Assembly: GCA_030674185.1 (NCBI GenBank)
Contig: CM060307.1
Span: 74,381,135-74,445,134, forward strand
Source: Monoplex corrugatus
Lineage: Eukaryota; Mollusca; Gastropoda; Littorinimorpha; Ranellidae
Reading direction: 5' to 3'
Length of the DNA: 64,000 nt
Shown here: one piece after another, positions 291 through 63,080 of the stretch
Numbering within the stretch: the stretch's first letter is position 1
Layout of the letters: every line of letters begins with the position of its first letter
The notes under the pieces: generated by a model
Told to the model about the DNA's origin: nothing
Databases searched by the model: none
The model's input: only the letters and a program-made list of their open reading frames with translations
Program-made: the position numbers and the translations under genes

Positions 291-506
291 ACTGAAACTG
301 AAAGTTTACATTCCACACATCGACATATATATTTTTTCTATGATAAAAACTAAGCGTTTCGTATTTGACCATTGCTCTTGAGATACATTCAATACACCTT
401 GCCTAGTTTGTGTCACGAACCCCTAGATAAAGCAAAATCTCTATTGACAAAGTCAAGACAGACCGACAAAGTATAAACATCACAGAGACAATCACAGAGC
501 TAACCA

Positions 507-870
507 GTTGCCGTGGTGTAGTGGTTAGCGCAAGGGACTACTGACTGGAAGGTTGTGGGTTCGAATCCCCATCAGTCCCTTCAAAAAATCATTGTGGGTT
601 TTTTCGGCTCTAACCGGATCCTACCCAGAGTTGGGCGTGCTATGGGCTCATTGGAAAGACTGGGACCACACAGTCGAGTCTCATCCACGTCACGAATGCG
701 TCATTGAGGGTGCTGCTCAAATCTTCTGACCAGCGCCGCAGGTGTCTGTATCTCTCGGGCTTGGTTGACGCCAGGATATGTTATGATAGTACAGCCCTGT
801 CACGCAGTCTCAATCCTAGATGGAACTCCATAGCATCATGATTATCATCCTCATTGACATCATCATCATC
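507..870 (+). repeat. tRNA-derived SINE
   Basis: A tRNA-like head at 507-580 has a box A-like TGGTGTAGTGGTTAGCGC and a box B GGTTCGAATCC, the internal RNA polymerase III promoter. A body of about 250 bp follows and ends in an ATC-rich tail near 833-869. The ends of the head do not form a convincing acceptor stem, and it runs into a long body, so this reads as a SINE and not a working tRNA gene. The 3' limit is approximate. Confidence 0.75.
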
Positions 871-9168: not shown

Positions 9169-9973
9169 ATACATACAAATAACAGATAGAAAATACATAA
9201 TAAAATCTCGAACACTTCCACAACGTAGGAAAAGACGAAGAGTACTAACAGGAAGAAAACCTGTACGTGTGTTGCAGATGATGTGACGACAGTGACGCCT
9301 GGAATCATGCTGCCGACAGGGAAGCGGGCGTCAGACACACGCTCACAACGTGCCCATCAATCAGACAGCCGGCTACAGCGGCACCAGACCCGAACAGCGG
9401 GAAAGCAGCATGCTCCTAAATAGCAGGAAACGTGTGCACCTCCCTCTCTCCCCCATCCCCGCCGGTTGTCCCAGTCAGGACCATCCATGGCCGTGTGACG
9501 ACTCGGAGTACTAACTATCAGCTGGTGTGACGGCAAACAGTTCTCTGTGTGTGTGTGTGCCGCGTGTTTGTATAGTAGGCCATGATGGTCTAATTTGATA
9601 CTATTCGTCATCCTCACCATGGATCTTGCGGACTGATACGTTATAAGTGTAGTCCTCAACCCTACCAACTTTAAAAAAAAAAAGAAAGAAAAATATCTAC
9701 AAGCTTTCAGTTTGGATGGATATGAACCATGACGTTGCGTGTCAAGTTGATAGTTCATATTCTGTGCAGACTTGTGACACAAAACTCAAACTCAGTGATT
9801 CGAATATATGATTGATCAAATCGTGTACCGGTTTTGTGTTTCTTGAACATGTTTGAATCGTGTGTCTTTCAAGCAAACTAAAAGGGATAAAAAAAAAAAC
9901 ACCACAATGTCAGAAAAGGATCGGACCAGACACTGTAGGCCTACAAGTGTTTGAGGCTGGGTTTTTTGATGCC
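9169..9973 (+). other. Receptor upstream region
   Basis: This is non-repetitive sequence upstream of the serotonin receptor ORF, presumably containing its 5' UTR and perhaps promoter. No TATA box or initiator can be called with confidence. The open frame extends upstream of the first ATG to about 9860 but begins with GTG and has no ATG before 9974. A short out-of-frame ATG at 9969 overlaps the start and stops after six codons. Confidence 0.4.
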
Positions 9974-11206
9974 ATGGCTTCAGTTGTAGACAGTAACTTG
10001 GCTGAACAGAGTACTGTAGCTTACCTGGCCACAAAAGACCCGTCAATGATTGTCCGCAAAGACCACCAACCCGTGCAGCTTGGCCTCGCCAAGGTGTCTC
10101 TCATGAACTTCACAGTGGATACTGTGTACAACAACTCTTCGCTGTCTCTGCAAAGCAACGACACCACAGCCTTGGACTGTGATGCCATCTTAAAAGACAC
10201 AGCAGCCCCTCCTCCCCTGTACGGGCAGGCTGCTACCTATGGCGTGTCCTTTATCCTTCTGCTTGTTCCCCTTCTGACAATATTCGGTAACTCGGTTACC
10301 ATTCTAGCAGTGTTGACTCACCGGAAACTTAGGACTAAGACTAATGCCTTCATTGTATCACTGGCGATAGCAGACCTGTGTGTGTCGCTGTTGGTGATGC
10401 CTTTCGGGATCTACCAGCAGGCCAACAACAAGACGTGGTTGTTGGGGGACACCGTGTGCCAACTGTCCGCCAGTTTTGACGTCATGATGTGCACGGTGTC
10501 CATTTTTCACCTGTCCTCTCTGGCCATTGACCGATACCTGGCCATCTGCAGGCCCTTCCTTCACGAGCGCATGACGATACGCATGATTGTGGGCATGCTG
10601 GTCTTCTGCTGGGTCACGCCCATCTTCATCTCCTTCCTGCCCATCATGAACGGTTGGAACACGGTGGGGATCGAGGATTATCTCCAGTGTGCTTTCCCCC
10701 CTGATGCTCAAGCGTGTATGTTCATCGTCAACATCCCTTTCTCCATCGTTTGCTCCCTCATCGCGTTTTACATCCCTGTCATTTTCATGGGCGTCTGCAA
10801 TGTCAAGATCTACATGGCAGCCAGTAGACAGGCTCACCAGATCCGAACCTTGGAGGAGGCAGGCAACCATAACCATATGAGTCATCACAAACGGAAAAAG
10901 TTCCACCACGAAACCAAGGCGGCCAAGACTTTGGGCATCATCATGGGCTGCTTCAGCGTGTGCTGGTTCCCGTTCTTCATCATGAACATCATCGACCCCA
11001 TCATCGGCTACCGCATCCCCTACATTCCTTGGATGGTGGCCCTGTGGCTGGGCTACATCAACTCCATGATGAACCCCGTGCTCTACTTCTTCTTCAACAG
11101 ACACTTCAACTACGCCTTCCACCGACTCCTGCGCTGCCGCGTGTGCAAGGGAGTAAGAGACTATGAAGAGGACATGACCACGGGCATCACCAACACGTCG
11201 GAATGA
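9974..11206 (+). CDS. HTR4-like: 5-HT4-like serotonin receptor (class A GPCR), single coding exon
   Basis: A 410-residue seven-helix receptor of the plasma membrane, expected to bind serotonin and, by analogy with 5-HT4, to raise cAMP through Gs. The start ATG at 9974 lies in a strong context (GCCATGG) and is the first in-frame ATG. The N-terminus (1-87) is extracellular, with N-glycosylation sites at N45, N53/N54 and N62. TM1 is about 88-113 and TM2 about 125-147 (ALADL-type AIADL). C162 and C239 should form the usual disulfide. D169 is the amine-binding aspartate of TM3, DRY is 186-188, CWFP is 330-333 in TM6 and NPVLY is 367-371. Cysteines 388 and 391 could be palmitoylated. Family-specific matches to 5-HT4 are AFYIP in TM5, AHQI and EEAG in loop 3, ETKAAKTLGIIMGCF, and LWLGYINS. 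No intron interrupts it. Other amine receptors (trace amine, 5-HT7-like) are less likely. The same frame continues after the stop. Confidence 0.9.
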   Translation: MASVVDSNLAEQSTVAYLATKDPSMIVRKDHQPVQLGLAKVSLMNFTVDTVYNNSSLSLQSNDTTALDCDAILKDTAAPPPLYGQAATYGVSFILLLVPLLTIFGNSVTILAVLTHRKLRTKTNAFIVSLAIADLCVSLLVMPFGIYQQANNKTWLLGDTVCQLSASFDVMMCTVSIFHLSSLAIDRYLAICRPFLHERMTIRMIVGMLVFCWVTPIFISFLPIMNGWNTVGIEDYLQCAFPPDAQACMFIVNIPFSIVCSLIAFYIPVIFMGVCNVKIYMAASRQAHQIRTLEEAGNHNHMSHHKRKKFHHETKAAKTLGIIMGCFSVCWFPFFIMNIIDPIIGYRIPYIPWMVALWLGYINSMMNPVLYFFFNRHFNYAFHRLLRCRVCKGVRDYEEDMTTGITNTSE

Positions 11207-20738: not shown

Positions 20739-20784
20739 ACGAAACCAAGCAAAGGACGGAAGGAAGCCTGTAATAGACCAATAT

Positions 20785-22417
20785 GGCGTCCTTTGGCAAA
20801 TACAAAGTCTGATGCCTGCATTTATGCTGATTCCAAAGCTCGTCTGACCTCTACTGATGTATGATATCAGCACTAATATGGTGGAATCGATGGAGGCCAA
20901 AATCAACAGATACACAAGGAAATGGCATGGTGTCCCACCTGGATTCACTGACGTTATGTTTTATGTTTTTCCAAGTAAAGCTTAAATCCATTGTCAAGAA
21001 GTAGGCTACAAGGTCAGAAAGGTCGGGCTTCTAGCATGCTTTTAGACTCAGCAGTCAATGTCATGAGATAAGTCCAGCCCAAGCTGAAGACTAGCTAAAA
21101 ATGGAAAGCCTTAAGATCAGAGAAAATGCAGGACATACATCAACCAACACGCAGGGACTGGAATCAACCAAAAATAGAACAGTGGTCAAAGCCAAGGAAA
21201 AAAGCAAGAGAGAGACATGGTAAGACAAGAGATTGAGAAAGAAGAGGATGGCAAAAGAATCCAGAAGCTATCCACAAAGGCCAACAGGGGCTACAGATAA
21301 CATGGGGAAAATGCACTCCAAGAATGTCTCGGCTGGAATGGCCTATGGCATACGGTCACTCTCGGATTCAGTTTCATCCTCAGATCTTTATAAGACCTCC
21401 TGCCCTCCAGTGCAAATCTGGTGAGATAGGGGAAATCAGATGACCCTGCGTGCCCGCTTTGCCAGGGCCAATAAACAGAGGAACATACCCTGAGCTCATG
21501 CAAGGTGGCGCTAATCCCAAGGATGTTACACATAGGGGCACAATGAAGTGCTTAAAGAGATTGCGCCAACGATTAATACAGCCAGGGAAAAAAATCGCTC
21601 CAGCAGAAGCCCCAGGAACGTTCCATATGGCAGGAGGCAGCAAACTGTGGTATGAAAAAGCAGTGACATCTTGGGCAGGGAAGTGAGGTCTACAGGACTG
21701 AGTGAATGACTGGAAGCGTAGAGCAGATCTTCCTTAAAAAAAAAGAAATAAAACAAAACAAAAACACCAAGAAATCGTCAGCAAAAGCAGCTTGGGACCG
21801 AACACAGTACTTCACTTCCTTTCATCAAAACACATTATTCTGATTGAACTCACTGTGCCGTATAAAAGAAGAATAGAGGAAGCTCATTTCTATAAGACTA
21901 AAAGGTGTACCAATCTAGCCAGTAATTTGAGGAAATACCGCTTCCAAGCCAAAGCCCTCGCCATGGAGTTTGGAGCGAGGGGGTTGGTAGGCACAACTGC
22001 CAGTGACCTCAAGAAACAGCTCTCGAATTCTGAGGAGAGGAACAGAGCCCTAAAGGCAAGGAAGCAACTGAAAAGAGTTCTAGGAAGAATAAAAAGTGAA
22101 TTTCATAGGACTGAAAATTTCTCTTTGCACAGTGTCATTAGCTATGTGGTTAAGACATCCGTCACATAAAGATGACTTGGCCTCAAGGCGCTCAACCACT
22201 TGGGAGGCGCAAGTTCGAACCCAGATGGAGGAAAGAAAAGTTGATGACAGAAGGGCATCCAGGGGTTATGACCTGGATGTGGCCCGGTCTCCTTACAGTC
22301 TAAGATGTTAAAGCCGAAACAATTGCTTGAGAGGGCTTCTTCTCTGAGGACTCTCTGCTGTCCAACTCTCCTAAGCGTTTTTTTTTTTGTTTTTGTTTTT
22401 TCCTACCTTTAAGTTCT
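20785..22417 (+). mobile_element. R2/HERO-like LINE, degraded 5'-truncated copy
   Basis: The sequence is collinear with 58900-60523. Shared blocks include ATACAAAGTCTGRTG, GCCAAAATCAACARATACAC, the stretch encoding ILIELTVPYK, and GTGAATTTCATAGGA at the ORF end. Stops, insertions and deletions are frequent. After the ORF remnant come a tRNA-like block (22138-22250) and the tail (22251-22417) shared with the 57-60 kb copy. Confidence 0.85.
22138..22222 (+). other. tRNA-like block in the 3' UTR of the degraded HERO-like copy
   Basis: Box A-like TTAGCTATGTGGTTAAGA at 22138-22155 and box B-like AGTTCGAACCC at 22212-22222. It starts about 35 bp after the position aligned with the ORF end of the other copy. 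The same position there holds a different tRNA-like block. Confidence 0.6.
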
Positions 22418-25577: not shown

Positions 25578-56510
<30,933 letters not shown>

Positions 56511-56807: not shown

Positions 56808-56855
56808 TTAGTATGTATGTATATGTATATGTATATATATATATATACATATACA
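56808..56855. repeat. (TATG)/(TA)n repeat at the 5' side of the HERO-like LINE
   Basis: TATGTATG, then TATATG and TA repeats directly precede the inferred LINE 5' end. A longer (TA)n lies at its 3' end. Confidence 0.85.
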
Positions 56856-56896
56856 TGCGGGCTTTGTGGGTTGGCTTCCCACCTTGCCTTTGATAA

Positions 56897-57499
56897 CATG
56901 CCACGAGTTTTCCAAATGAAAGATGCTCCCAGGATTCACCGAAAGGGGGAGAGAGTGATGAATCCATCGGCACTGACTCCATCACGACTGGAAACGCACA
57001 ACGGACCATGATTGATGACCAGTTGGAATTTCCGTGTGCGTGTGGAAGGAGATTCACCACCAAACGCGGCATGAAGATCCACAGGACAAAAATGGGCTGT
57101 TTGAAGACACATACGAACCAGCAGCAGCGCACTGCGATAGCAGGTGAGACGTTGGATGACCAAGGCCAGGAATTAAACCATAGTGCCAAGGACATCCACG
57201 CTGACGGTTCTGATGCGGATTTTGCACAAGCTCTTAACGCCAAACGTGGAAAACTCAATTTGCCGCCTGCCGGTGCAAAAGAACAATGGGAGAAATTAGA
57301 TGAGGAACTTGTCCTTAAGCTGAATGCGCTAATAGGGAACAGTACGCTGGAACACAAACTTGACACATACGGAGACATCATATACTCTATCTGCAGGGAC
57401 ACTTATGGAGTGAAGCAGCCAAAGACAAAAACGCCTCCCCAGAAATCCAGAAGACAGCAAACAGATGGAGAGCATCCGGAGGGAGAAAAGGAAGCTTAA
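56897..57499 (+). CDS. HERO-like LINE, N-terminal zinc-finger segment
   Basis: The frame is open from 56897 (after TAA at 56894) to 57499, with its first ATG at 57008. From that ATG, residues 9-31 read FPCACGRRFTTKRGMKIHRT then KMGC, a C-x-C ... H ... C finger of the sort at the N-terminus of R2-type proteins, which binds nucleic acid and helps choose the target. It overlaps the main ORF by 35 bp in a +1-related frame. In related elements both parts are one protein, so either a one-base indel broke the ORF or the frames are joined by +1 frameshifting. Confidence 0.65.
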   Translation, partial: HATSFPNERCSQDSPKGGESDESIGTDSITTGNAQRTMIDDQLEFPCACGRRFTTKRGMKIHRTKMGCLKTHTNQQQRTAIAGETLDDQGQELNHSAKDIHADGSDADFAQALNAKRGKLNLPPAGAKEQWEKLDEELVLKLNALIGNSTLEHKLDTYGDIIYSICRDTYGVKQPKTKTPPQKSRRQQTDGEHPEGEKEA

Positions 57500-60257
57500 A
57501 AAGCGAATGAAAACTGCCTCAGAATTCGAGAAGCAAGGGCTCCTGGAACTCTGGAAAGATCTGAAGGCCAAACACAATGCTCTCAGCAAAGTGGAATCAG
57601 CAAGGCGAAGAAAGAGCAAAAAGAAGAAGACTCAAGATCGTTTCTTCAAAGATCCCTTTGACTTTGCAAGAAAGCTGTTTGAACAACCCAAATCAGGGAC
57701 TCTCACAGTGGGCAAGGAAACCCTAGAGCAGCATCTCAGGGAAACATATTCCGATTCTCAGCGCGAGGCACCACTTGAAATCCAAAATCTGGTTTGGCCT
57801 GCAGCGCCAGAAGGAAAATTCAATAACAAACCACCAACACTGGATGAAGTGAAGAACGTAGTAAAGAAAGCCAGAGCCAAGTCAGCACCTGGACCAAACG
57901 GAATACCATACCTGCTCTACAAGAAATGCCCAAAAGTGCTCGAGTGGCTCCACAAGATGATTCGATCAGCATGGAGGAACCAGAAGATCAGCGACCAATG
58001 GATGAGAGCTGAAGGAGTGTACATTCCGAAGGAGCAGAACTCCAGCAGCATCAATCAGTTCAGGCCAATATCACTTCTGAACGTCGAGGGGAAAATCTTC
58101 TTCTCTGTTATGGCAGCAAGATTGACAAAATACCTGACTGAAAACAAGTATCTGGATATGTCAGTCCAAAAGGGAGGCATACCAGGAATGCCTGGATGCT
58201 TGGAACATGCCACGTTGATTTGGGATGCCATCCAAAAAGCAAGAACAGAGAAGAGAGACATTGACGTAGTTTGGCTTGATCTGGCAAATGCATATGGATC
58301 AGTTCCACACGATATGATCCAGCTGGCTCTTGAAATGTATCACATCCCAGAAAACATCCGAACAATGCTGAGGAAGTATTTCCAAGGGTTCTCAATGCGG
58401 TTCTCTACCAAAGAATACACCACGGACTGGATAGACCTAGAGGTGGGCATTGCAATGGGCTGTGCAATCTCTCCCATACTGTTCGTGTTGGCAATGGAAG
58501 TCATCTTGAAAGCTGCAATGAAGACTTCAGGTCCAGTGAATCTGGGAGATGGATACCAGATGCCTCCTCTGAAAGCTTTCATGGATGACACAACAGTCTT
58601 GTCCACGGATGAGGAAGAGACACACCAAATCTTAAAGCAGCTGGATGAGCTGGTGGCCTCTTCAAGAATGAGGTTCAAACCTAAGAAATCCCGAAGTCTC
58701 TCACTGCGAAAAGGAAAAGTGGCAGATTCAGTCAAATTCATGGTAGCCAACCAAGCCATCCCCACTGTCACAGAAGAGCCAGTAAAAAGTCTCGGAAGAT
58801 GGTATGATGACTCCCTGAAAGACACACAAAGGGGATGTGAAACCAAGCAAACAGCAGAAGAAGGCCTGAAGAAAATAGATAACTGCGGACTGCCAGGCAA
58901 ATACAAAGTCTGGTGTCTACAGTTCATGCTGATACCAAAGCTGCTGTGGCCACTGCTAATCTATGACATTTGCACCAGCACAGTCGAAGCAATGGAAGCC
59001 AAAATCAACAAATACACAAGAAAATGGCTCGGTGTCCCACCTGGTCTCACTGATGTTGCATTCTACTGTCGTCAAGCAATGCTGAAGCTACCTCTGAAAT
59101 CCATAGTGGAGGAATACAAAGTTGGAAAAGCAAGACTGTTGAGCATGCTGGAGGAATCGGAGGACAATATCGTGAGAGCAGTTCATCCAAAGCTGAGAAC
59201 TGGCAGAAAGTGGAAAGTCCAAGAGGCTGTAAACAATGCCAAGAGAAACCTCAGCATCAAAGAAATAATTGGACACACGCAAACCAACAGACAGGGACTG
59301 GGAGCAACAAAAATGCAGTGGTGGTCCAAAGCCAAAGGGAAGAAAAAAAGAGACATGATCATACAGGAGTTGAAGGAAGAAGAAGATGTCAAAAGAGTGC
59401 AGAAGGCAGTCCAGCAAGGTCAACAGGGGCAATGGACAACATGGGACAGTGCACTCCAAAGAAGTCTCAGCTGGAACGATATGTGGCACATGGCTCCTCT
59501 AAGGATAAGCTTCCTCCTCAGATCTGTATATGACCTGCTCCCCTCGAATGCAAACTTAGTGAAATGGGGGAAAGCAGACGACCCAGCATGTCCGCTCTGT
59601 CAGAAGAAACAAACAGTGGAACATGTCCTAAGCTCTTGCAAAGTAGCGCTAGCCCAAGGAAGGTATACATGGAGGCACAACCAAGTTCTGAAAGTGATCA
59701 CAGATGTGGTTAGCGAAAAAACCATGACCCCAAACGCACCAATTGCTATGACAACGTTCTACAAAGCAGGAGGGAAACAGGTCTGGCCCGAAAGGGCTAT
59801 GACAACCAGCACATTGCCAAAGGGTCTTCTGGATGGAGCAGTCGACTGGGAGTGTACAGCAGACCTCCCAGAGTGGAGAAATTACCCAGATGTCATCAGC
59901 AAGACAGGCATGAGACCAGACATCGCTCTCCACTCTGACTCCTCGAAACAAGTGATTCTGATAGAACTCACTGTGCCATACGAAAGCAGAATGGAAGAAG
60001 CACATATCTACAAGACCGAAAAATACGCCGGTCTTGCCAGCACCCTGAAGAAAGCAGGTCTGCGGGTCAAAATCTTCGCCATAGAGGTCGGGGCAAGAGG
60101 GTTTGTGGGCACCTCCGCTTATGATCTCATGAAACAACTCGCCATTTCTGGGAAGAAGAGGACTAGAGCCCTTAAAGCGATGGCAGAGGCAGCAGAAAGG
60201 AGCTCAAGCTGGATCTGGGCAAGGAGGAACCAAAAAAGTGAACTTCATAAGGATTAA
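57465..60257 (+). CDS. HERO-like LINE, reverse transcriptase and endonuclease
   Basis: A 930-codon intact frame. Reverse transcriptase spans roughly residues 130-420: KARAKSAPGPNGIPYLLYKK, NQFRPISLLNVEGKIF, VVWLDLANAYGSVPH, GIAMGCAISPILFVLAMEV and AFMDDTTVLS (catalytic DD near 58585). The thumb follows. The zinc knuckle CPLCQKKQTVEHVLSSC is near 59590-59640. The restriction-like endonuclease motif RPDIALHSDSSKQVILIELT is near 59913-59970. The protein would nick a target and copy the element RNA from the nick (target-primed reverse transcription). The ATG is the first in the overlapping frame; the real N-terminus is probably the zinc-finger segment upstream. Confidence 0.9.
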   Translation: MESIRREKRKLKKRMKTASEFEKQGLLELWKDLKAKHNALSKVESARRRKSKKKKTQDRFFKDPFDFARKLFEQPKSGTLTVGKETLEQHLRETYSDSQREAPLEIQNLVWPAAPEGKFNNKPPTLDEVKNVVKKARAKSAPGPNGIPYLLYKKCPKVLEWLHKMIRSAWRNQKISDQWMRAEGVYIPKEQNSSSINQFRPISLLNVEGKIFFSVMAARLTKYLTENKYLDMSVQKGGIPGMPGCLEHATLIWDAIQKARTEKRDIDVVWLDLANAYGSVPHDMIQLALEMYHIPENIRTMLRKYFQGFSMRFSTKEYTTDWIDLEVGIAMGCAISPILFVLAMEVILKAAMKTSGPVNLGDGYQMPPLKAFMDDTTVLSTDEEETHQILKQLDELVASSRMRFKPKKSRSLSLRKGKVADSVKFMVANQAIPTVTEEPVKSLGRWYDDSLKDTQRGCETKQTAEEGLKKIDNCGLPGKYKVWCLQFMLIPKLLWPLLIYDICTSTVEAMEAKINKYTRKWLGVPPGLTDVAFYCRQAMLKLPLKSIVEEYKVGKARLLSMLEESEDNIVRAVHPKLRTGRKWKVQEAVNNAKRNLSIKEIIGHTQTNRQGLGATKMQWWSKAKGKKKRDMIIQELKEEEDVKRVQKAVQQGQQGQWTTWDSALQRSLSWNDMWHMAPLRISFLLRSVYDLLPSNANLVKWGKADDPACPLCQKKQTVEHVLSSCKVALAQGRYTWRHNQVLKVITDVVSEKTMTPNAPIAMTTFYKAGGKQVWPERAMTTSTLPKGLLDGAVDWECTADLPEWRNYPDVISKTGMRPDIALHSDSSKQVILIELTVPYESRMEEAHIYKTEKYAGLASTLKKAGLRVKIFAIEVGARGFVGTSAYDLMKQLAISGKKRTRALKAMAEAAERSSSWIWARRNQKSELHKD

Positions 60258-60277
60258 ATTCCCTACAGATGATGTGT

Positions 60278-60355
60278 GCCCCGTTAGCACATTGGTAAAA
60301 CCGCGTACCGCAGTTCTGAAGCGCAGAATCGCCCAGGTTCGATCCCCGGCGTGGG
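60278..60355 (+). other. tRNA-like block in the 3' UTR of the HERO-like LINE
   Basis: Begins 20 bp after the ORF stop. It has a box A-like GTTAGCACATTGGTAAAA (60283-60300) and a box B GGTTCGATCCC (60336-60346), followed by an A-run. The degraded copy at 22.1 kb has a different tRNA-like block at the same place. A chance SINE insertion is therefore unlikely for both. Confidence 0.7.
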
Positions 60356-60370
60356 AAAAAAAAAAAAAAT

Positions 60371-60521
60371 AGACAACAGCAGAAGGGCATCCAGGAGTCA
60401 TGACCTGGATGTGGCCCGGCCCCCCGAGAGTGTAAGGAATTCAGGGCCGAAACACTTGTCTAAAGGGGGTTACTTCTCTGAAGACCTTCTGTTGTCTAGC
60501 TCTCCCTAGAGTTTCTTTCTA

Positions 60522-60523
<2 letters not shown>
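60371..60523 (+). other. Conserved 3' tail of the HERO-like LINE with predicted stem
   Basis: AGACAACAGCAGAAGG (60371-60386) can pair with CCTTCTGTTGTCT (60485-60497) with one bulged base. An inner hairpin CCAGG-AGTCATGA-CCTGG (60391-60408) is kept in the 22.25-kb copy as CCAGG-GGTTATGA-CCTGG. It is probably the RNA feature bound by the element's own protein, by analogy with R2 (inference). Confidence 0.6.
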
Positions 60524-60604
<81 letters not shown>

Positions 60605-60799: not shown

Positions 60800-63080
60800 G
60801 GTTCTGAATATAAGTCTTGATCGATTGACTGCAACCAGAGACAGGAACAGCCAACCTTGGGTTACAGAAAAAATCCGGAGACTCATACACAAGAGGGACA
60901 GAGTATTCAAAAGAATGCGCAAAACCGGGTCTGAGGAACTGAAGGCTGAAATGAAGACTCTCCGACGCTCTGTACAACGGAAGCTCCGCCGATCCTATTG
61001 GAAATACCTGAACGGCATCTTTACCGAGGATGAGACACCAGACCAGGCAGCTAAGAACAAGCGCTTTTGGAACTACATCAAGCACCAGAAGTCATCAAAC
61101 ATAAGTGTCTCTCCCCTCAAGAAGAATAGCCGAATGACCTCCAATCCAAAGGAACAGGCAGAAGTCCTCAACCAGCAGTTCCAATCAGTGTTTGGGAATG
61201 GAAGACAATATACAGAGGAGGAGTTTCAGGACAAGACTGAGATGCCCAATACTGACATACCATCCATGAACAACATCACCATCATGAAAATGGTATGAAG
61301 TCAATGCTGAAAAATCTAAACCCTCACAAGGCCTGTGGACCTGATGGAATCCGTTCAAGAGTTCTCAAAGAACTGGCAGAGGAGCTCACGCCTAGCCTAA
61401 CTATACTGTTCCGCTCATCCCTGTCCACAGGTATCGTACCTGCAGACTGGGGGACAGCTCATGTAGAACCAATATTCAAGAAGGGAGAACAGTACAACCC
61501 AGCCAACTACCAGCCAGTGTCCCTTACCAGCATTGTGTGCAAAATGTTGGAGCACATCATAGTTAGCACAGTAATGAAACACCTTGAGAGCCATCAGATA
61601 TTGAGCGACAACCAGCATGGGTTTAGAAAAGGAAGATCATGTGAGACCCAACACCTTGGGTTCACTGAAGAGCTGACTGCAAACCTGGAAAGAGGCAAAC
61701 AGACCGATGTCTTCATAATGGACTTTTCAAAGGTATTTGGCCAGGTCAATCACTCTTTGCTAATGCATAAACTCCAGAGATACAGTATCAGAGGAACTAG
61801 GCCCTACAGAAGCATGGATCTCCAACTTTCTCAAGGATCAGCAGCAAGTAGTAGTAGTGGCTGGAGCGTCCTCCTCTGCAGTGAGCGTCAAATCTGGTGT
61901 ACCTCAGGGGTCTGTGCTAGGTCCATGCTTGTTCCTAGTCTATATTAACAACCTCCCTGAGAAGCTCTTAGCAAAGACACGGATGTTCGCCGATGACACA
62001 GCAGTATCCAGGATGATAGCCAAAAGCCAAGACCAAGAACAGCTTCAAGATCTCCAACGCCTAGCCAATTGGGAGAGGAACTGGGATATGGAGTTTCATC
62101 CTGCGAAATGCCAAACCCTTCGTGTCACAAGGAGTAGGTCCTCACTTCACCATGACTATTCCCTTCAGGGACATGCCCTCGACACCGTAACATCTGCAAA
62201 ATACCTTGGTGTCACCGTAACCAAAGACATGAGTTGGGACGAAAACATAAACAACCTGTGTTTCAAAGGAAATAGAACACTCAAATTCCTCCGACAGAAC
62301 CTGAAAATCAGCTCCTCAGAGATCAAGGAACGTGCCTACAAAGCGCTAGTTCACCCCTATTTGGAGTACGCGTCTTCCGTCTGGGACCCCCATACAGAGA
62401 AAAACATAACTAAAATAGAAGCGGTTCAAAGACGAGCTGCACGCTTCGTCCTTAACAGATATAGGAACACTTCTAGTGTTAGCAGCATGCTGGACACATT
62501 GGGCTGGCCCTCATTGGAGAAACGACGGCAAGTAGCAAGACTCTCTATGCTGTTCAAAGTGCACCAAGGCCTTGTTCACTGTCCCAGCCTAAAAGCAAAA
62601 CTAGTCCCTCTACCTGACCGTAAGCGGCATGGCCATGACAGACAATTCCACTTGATCGCATCAAGGACCCAGTATAGAGCTGCTTCTTTTCTGCCTAGAA
62701 CTGTCAAGAACTGGAACAATCTCCAACAAGGAACAGTTGAGGCCACAACACTTGACACATTCGTGTCAAGGGCCTCCAAAATCCCAGACTAGACCGACCC
62801 CCCTTCCCTCCCCCCACTTTCCCTCAGAGCCCCTCACCCGCCCCCCCCCCTGCTGCCCTCTTCACCCACTACCCCCCTCTTGCCCTCTTCACCCCCCTTC
62901 CCCCTCCTGCCTCCTCACCCCACCACCTTCATTCCCCCCACCACCCACCCCACCATCATCACGATTATAACTGTCCACTACCCAGATTTATCTGCTGCAA
63001 ACCCCCCAGTTATAGGTGCCAGAATAATCAAGTTTGATTGTGGGCCCTCAACACTGAAGAAGAAGAAGAAGAAGAAGAGA
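60800..63080 (+). mobile_element. Jockey/CR1-group LINE, 5'-truncated and frameshifted
   Basis: Pieces of one ORF lie in different frames (60825-61298, 61295-61948, 61857-62792). Motifs in order: NKRFWNYIKHQK, KACGPDGIRSRVLKEL, IFKKGEQYNPANYQPVSLTS, QHGFRKGRSCETQ, IMDFSKVFGQVNH, SGVPQGSVLGPCLFLVYIN, MFADDTAVS (catalytic, near 61982), FHPAKCQTL, KYLGVTVTKDMSW, YLEYASSVWDPH and AVQRRAARFVLNRY. The endonuclease is absent. A C-rich 3' UTR (62792-62960) and a (GAA)n tail at about 63054-63078 follow. Two frameshifts show it is inactive. Confidence 0.88.

Follow-up and report, generated by a model that had tools for sequence, protein, structure and literature searches.

A tRNA-related module is a fixed part of the 3' end of an R2/HERO-like LINE in Monoplex corrugatus and differs between LINE families

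The window analysed here (64,000 nucleotides of the gastropod Monoplex corrugatus; assembly GCA_030674185.1, contig CM060307.1, positions 74,381,135 to 74,445,134 of the forward strand) contains two LINE copies with the same order of parts, in which the ORF end is followed by a block bearing box A and box B sequences and then by a tail. An earlier note on this DNA had placed such a block between the ORF end and a common tail, and it is indeed present in both window copies. The features, in window coordinates, are as follows.

56857..60257, + strand: LINE copy 1, 5' part and coding region (RT, zf-RVT)
60267..60355, + strand: module A (tRNA-related; left edge approximate), with box A and box B
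60356..60369, + strand: A-run (A14) between module A and tail, copy 1
60370..60523, + strand: structured 3' tail of copy 1, 154 bases, opening with TAGACAAC at 60370
20741..22111, + strand: decayed coding region of copy 2, 66.4% DNA identity to copy 1
22112..22239, + strand: module B of copy 2 (tRNA-related), homologous to the block of locus L172
22240..22384, + strand: tail of copy 2, 77.7% identity to the copy 1 tail

The frame of copy 1 consists of two overlapping ORFs (56897-57499 and 57414-60257) with the stop codon at 60255-60257, and about 84 bp of 5' end present in other copies are missing from it. Its block begins about 10 bases past the stop and carries box A TAGCACATTGG (60285-60295) and box B GGTTCGATCCC (60336-60346). 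Copy 2, a decayed relic, has box A TAGCTATGTGG (22139-22149) and box B AGTTCGAACCC (22212-22222), each with one mismatch to the consensus used; its 44-base tail pattern found no further genomic match at fewer than 3 mismatches. Identity between the two copies is 77.7% in the tail (139 bp) and 66.4% in the coding part (1378 columns), and blastn of copy 1 against copy 2 listed no match between the two blocks, which agrees with the earlier description of different blocks between alignable ORF ends and tails. Likeness of the between-box stretches is at shuffle level (314 of 1000 shuffles reach the score). For the whole interval from stop to tail, the score was reached by 14 of 1000 shuffles in global and 5 of 1000 in local alignment, and the common boxes and A-rich end could be the source of this similarity.

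The main frame matches the Pfam domains RVT_1 (E 1.8e-22) and zf-RVT (E 2.5e-7, residues 682-746), and among proteins of solved structure the best relatives are R2 retrotransposon proteins (E 7.2e-32); a restriction-like endonuclease motif was spotted by eye, without a Pfam hit. A protein search scored 7982 candidates, of which 921 are relatives at an E of 0.001 or below. Identities within the best 120 of these 921 run from 98% downward, and the few with names include Dreissena, Pecten, Branchiostoma and fishes. The element thus appears, from its sequence, to be an R2-type non-LTR retrotransposon, putatively of the HERO clade. An excerpt of one study places R2-Hero elements in molluscs (PMC10294476), and an excerpt of another describes the HERO clade as holding many non-specific families as well as some microsatellite-targeting ones (PMC4640811). 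Outside eukaryotes, protein-based scans of viral contigs gave no relative and the long tail pattern had no match in these contigs, where at least 120 hits to 14-base patterns were merely short stretches in common with the tail. Prokaryote contigs contained one R2-like RT fragment at 28% identity, on a 4.4-kb contig (L001) filed under a Rhodospirillales MAG, which is probably eukaryotic contamination. The tail translated as an ORF found nothing in the protein set, and an HDV-like 5' ribozyme was absent among the hits in two loci, which were repeat-like miRNA models and weak others. By eye, the window also holds RT-like frames of other LINEs (60800-62800, + strand, and 33992-35374, - strand) and an open frame of 449 codons resembling a rhodopsin-type G-protein-coupled receptor (9857-11206, + strand).

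Since the 64-kb window has nine box-B-like sites with at most one mismatch, counting both strands, a single box is not rare. ARAGORN predicted no tRNA at the blocks, Rfam at gathering score returned nothing for the whole window, and no tRNA was among the Rfam hits up to E 10 at the two blocks. A genuine tRNA gene is ruled out by these searches, neither of which recognises a tRNA. We also compared a home-made cloverleaf score with 60 shuffles per sequence: 3 of 60 shuffles were as good as block 1 and 13 of 60 as good as block 2, and for two other SINE heads of the window the figures were 60 of 60 (a failure) versus 1 of 60 (a good score). Both blocks are tRNA-related only, which corrects the earlier description: the tRNA models of ARAGORN and Rfam are negative and the cloverleaf score is weak. 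Sequences resembling tRNA-headed SINEs, without the LINE tail, lie elsewhere in the window at 505-580 (+ strand) and 17955-17885 (- strand), and relatives of the former occur in the adjoining 200 kb (L122, L126/L127, L134).

Whether the block belongs to the LINE was assessed across the 3.02-Gb assembly. With up to 3 mismatches allowed, a 35-base tail pattern matched 9705 places (reversed control, 0), a block 48-mer 7204 places and a 48-mer across the ORF-block junction 7247 places; block and junction agree within 1%, and both figures are mismatch-tolerant pattern counts, not exact element numbers. Truncation, divergence or membership of other families may account for the roughly 2,500 surplus tail places. 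The 200 kb beside the window contain neither a tail nor a block copy. We read 43 tail loci, a non-random set: 30 are the exact matches that come first on one contig, and 13 were chosen by tail variant among the 63 places at which the 44-base tail pattern of copy 2 matched with 3 mismatches; the genome-wide counts are free of this bias. Among the first 30, 25 consist of ORF end, block and tail with one junction, two of block and tail without ORF, and three of tail alone, and the block is 95-100% identical across 27 of the 30. The 13 extra loci comprise ten with ORF, block and tail of family 1 (that of copy 1), two with tail only (L173 and L174, with neither ORF nor block in the ~290 bases inspected by eye) and one from another LINE family (L172). 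Over all 43, therefore, 35 have ORF, block and tail, two block and tail, and five the tail only, and L172 represents the other family.

The earlier note reasoned that the blocks would be independent SINE insertions if most copies passed straight from ORF to tail and the blocks showed SINE-style target duplications. No such passage from the family-1 ORF to the tail occurs in the 43 loci, 35 of which have the block in between. Because of these 35 loci, and of the 7247 junctions against 7204 blocks, we conclude that the block is fixed in a LINE with about 7,200 copies and is no independent SINE insertion, an origin that the junction counts rule out for copy 1. A chance arrival of two unrelated SINEs in the 3' UTRs of two LINE copies would suit the resemblance to SINE heads and the difference between the window blocks, but it can scarcely be credited when one junction recurs in 35 of 43 loci and at about 7,200 places genome-wide, and when the downstream tail is the LINE's own and common to both families. 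The suggestion that this LINE acts as a source of SINEs is weak. ORF-less elements with block and tail were found at two of the 37 block-bearing loci (L143 and L158), and together with the genome-wide counts this speaks against it, while both ORF-less loci start near the module edge, as such a source would have it. The block heads no large SINE family, and ORF-less copies with a module A head are few.

The borders of the module bear on what it once was. By eye, homology between copy 1 and L172 wanes about 10 bases past the stop, and L143 and L158 start within a few bases of that fading point, about 18 bases before box A. L143 is isolated and lies within a minisatellite, which hides any target-site duplication; its flank and the element have some letters in common, leaving its edge uncertain by several bases. 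L158 is followed downstream by the 5' end of another LINE unit. At the right border, the 37 loci with a module all have an A-run of 7-40 bases ahead of the tail, and three of the 30 loci (L153, L159 and L170) are truncated at the tail border. The flanks of 18 truncated loci were inspected by eye for target-site duplications; of the 16 truncated loci with readable flanks, three end at the tail border and two (L143 and L158) at the module's left edge, so that truncation seems to fall preferentially at module borders. We rejected the idea that L153, L159 and L170 are chimeras of the tail with other RNAs: the sequence upstream of their tails recurs in other parts of the genome that were retrieved, and simple 5' truncation is enough to explain them. 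Overall, such borders suit a module that once was, or still is, a separate RNA ending in poly(A), although those on the right-hand side could also come from polymerase halting at the A-run.

One possibility is that the module works as a pol III promoter, from which a short module-plus-tail RNA is made and either inserted as a SINE or left to compete for the protein. Box A and box B are suitably spaced for this, and the starts of L143 and L158 only a few bases apart, ahead of box A, are what it would give. Against it, the ORF is absent from just two of 37 block loci, the block count differs from the junction count by less than 1%, and box B is changed in many copies: it reads TTCGATCC in 23 of the 37 module-bearing loci and TTCGCTCC in 14, all 14 of them ORF-linked, and the A altered in the changed form is a conserved base. 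We consider a working promoter decidedly unlikely, and in view of the same 14 copies a need for pol III expression is not supported. Loci with the C-type box B often have a short A-run (8-17 bases, one of 25). Another possibility is that the block is an RNase P/Z-type processing signal at which the LINE RNA is cut at the module borders and the tail freed. The three stops at the tail border and two at the left edge would suit such cutting, but these numbers are small, the fold is too weak for tRNA models, and polymerase slipping in the A-run accounts for the border stops equally; we think a processing signal very improbable.

In both copies the tail itself is predicted to fold as a long basal stem enclosing a CATCCAGG/CCTGGATG hairpin, and by eye one basal pair apparently changed from A-T to G-C on both sides between copies 1 and 2. 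In R2, structured 3' RNA is the start site for reverse transcription. By analogy with R2 and other stringent LINEs, the tail is most likely the RNA bound by the R2-like protein to begin target-primed reverse transcription. At seven of the 30 loci, a LINE 5' end (GCACATGGTCAG...) follows directly after the ACC(T) of the tail, forming head-to-tail arrays (L148, L153, L158, L159, L163, L170 and L171). Among the tail places listed, those on the same strand are mostly spaced 3.71-3.77 kb apart (one pair 3.93 kb), with up to four in a row (C1:13838823-13850130). Some upstream members are 5'-truncated (L148, L163 and L171), block and tail (L158) or tail only (L153, L159 and L170). Arrays with truncated upstream members fit end-to-end template jumping between RNAs. 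Rival explanations are unequal recombination and a later copy landing behind an earlier one.

Copy 1 is flanked on either side by (TA)n (window 56812-56856 and 60524-60602). The targeting of (TA)n or tandem repeats suggested by this copy was rejected on the varied flanks of other loci. A TRF tandem repeat starts within 40 bp of the 3' end at nine of 30 loci, compared with 106 of 400 random places, all taken from one 200-kb stretch; as seven of the 30 loci continue into a next LINE unit, nine of 23 is the fairer figure. There is no clear preference for tandem repeats at the 3' end either way.

The second module provides evidence on how the first was acquired. L172 (C5:80486560-80486900, minus strand) has a related ORF, a different tRNA-related block and then the tail. 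Its block aligns with that of copy 2 at a local score of 101 (maximum of 500 shuffles, 52) and with that of copy 1 at 55.5 (maximum of 500 shuffles, 52); the blocks of copies 1 and 2 score 52.5 (maximum of 500 shuffles, 51). At the ORF end L172 is 77.6% identical to copy 1 (104/134) versus 68.9% to copy 2 (82/119), and at the tail start 89.3% (50/56) versus 85.5% (47/55), whereas in the module it is 56.8% identical to copy 1 (63/111) versus 66.7% to copy 2 (80/120); between copies 1 and 2 the values are 71.7% (ORF end), 54.0% (module) and 77.6% (tail start), all from three sequences compared over short, gap-rich stretches. The reversal of the ORF and tail order in the module favours replacement, and since the decay of copy 2 hits ORF and module alike, the reversal points to a module replaced in the family-1 line. 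Genome-wide, the L172 block pattern matched only itself within 3 mismatches; as the copy 2 tail pattern also matches only itself within 2 mismatches, module B looks like a relic. Of the module swapping proposed in the earlier note, then, the conflict between modules and ORF/tail similarity is upheld, on just three sequences.

A single ancestral module, kept throughout, might instead account for these patterns if its loops and variable arm diverged fast and family 1 lost about 25 bases, with no swap. The block sits a few bases past the stop in copy 1, copy 2 and L172 alike, the three-way alignment is continuous with one larger gap, and the similarity in the stop-to-tail interval (14 and 5 of 1000 shuffles) and the scores of module A, which exceed all 500 shuffles against both L172 and copy 2 (55.5 and 52.5, with maxima of 52 and 51), are as common descent would have it. 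These scores count against a swap, as does its dependence on one fossil (copy 2) and one single locus (L172). Common descent is in turn opposed by the between-box stretch at shuffle level (314 of 1000), by module similarities (56.8% versus 66.7%) that invert the order in ORF and tail, and by the ease with which the common boxes alone could yield so weak a signal. We regard one ancestral module as possible, though somewhat improbable.

Our preferred reading, over which we divide belief and doubt about equally, is that template jumping onto a SINE-type RNA with a tRNA head and a poly(A) end brought the module in, and that the module was later replaced. The 3' UTR is built in SINE fashion, with a tRNA-headed module, an A-run and then the LINE's own structured tail. 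During copying, reverse transcriptase would leave the tail for the poly(A) end of the SINE-type RNA, and a second jump would take it from there to LINE mRNA just past the stop codon. The resulting chimera, retaining ORF and tail, would still have been mobile and could have expanded to about 7,200 copies, the module now being carried, we infer, mostly as a tolerated passenger. Joining of a poly(A)-ended RNA to the tail should leave an A-run exactly between module and tail, as seen in the 37 module-bearing loci, and the 7 of 30 head-to-tail junctions fit end-to-end jumps. As the older relatives copy 2 and L172 have a different module at the same place, capture probably happened more than once. 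Template jumping is suggested by R2 itself: an excerpt of a Drosophila study reports in vivo R2 template jumps that attach tRNA and U12 RNA to elements, one such join perhaps having founded a subfamily (PMC3414825). Against capture, two jumps would be required in one event, and the R2 jumps described in that excerpt are at the 5' end; against the passenger role, an active pol III promoter would also explain ORF-less starts at the module edge.

How LINE tails and small RNAs give rise to SINEs is usually deduced from SINEs that are already complete. An abundant LINE with a fixed module between ORF and tail, together with relatives that have another module in that position, would record such fusions from the LINE side, and head exchange by R2-type template jumping would become testable in a cell-free R2-type assay. 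A bolder reading, which we think unlikely, is that the 3' UTR is a complete tRNA-headed SINE, which this LINE lineage would carry as an exchangeable cassette, captured repeatedly by the R2-like enzyme, able to be emitted ORF-less from its edge and replaced over time. If so, LINE and SINE would be two states of one 3' end, and SINE birth would run in both directions.

tRNA-derived SINEs consist of a tRNA head joined to a LINE tail, and the 3' end described here resembles them in its order of box A/box B head, A-run and LINE tail. Unlike them, it lies downstream of an autonomous ORF and is copied along with it, and independent ORF-less amplification is not seen (two of 37 loci; block 7204 versus junction 7247). 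In molluscs, SINEs and LINEs reportedly exchange heads, bodies and tails, as Matetovici and colleagues (in 2016), Kojima (in 2018) and Nishihara and colleagues (in 2016) are said to have described. The exchange of parts between SINEs and LINEs is similar; that work reportedly concerns SINEs and short elements, whereas here a tRNA module lies inside an R2/HERO-like LINE. The element shares with R2/HERO elements of the restriction-like endonuclease type the RT and zf-RVT domains, R2 proteins as best relatives and a folding 3' tail; it differs from those described in the excerpts by a tRNA-related module between ORF and tail that differs by family. By titles and abstract openings, we recognised no tRNA-related module in an R2/HERO LINE in the literature searched. 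The Drosophila R2 elements with joined tRNA or U12 RNA, and R2 SIDEs, are alike in that an R2-type enzyme attaches small RNAs; in the Drosophila elements of that excerpt the RNA is at the 5' junction, whereas here the module lies between ORF and tail, in thousands of copies (PMC3414825).
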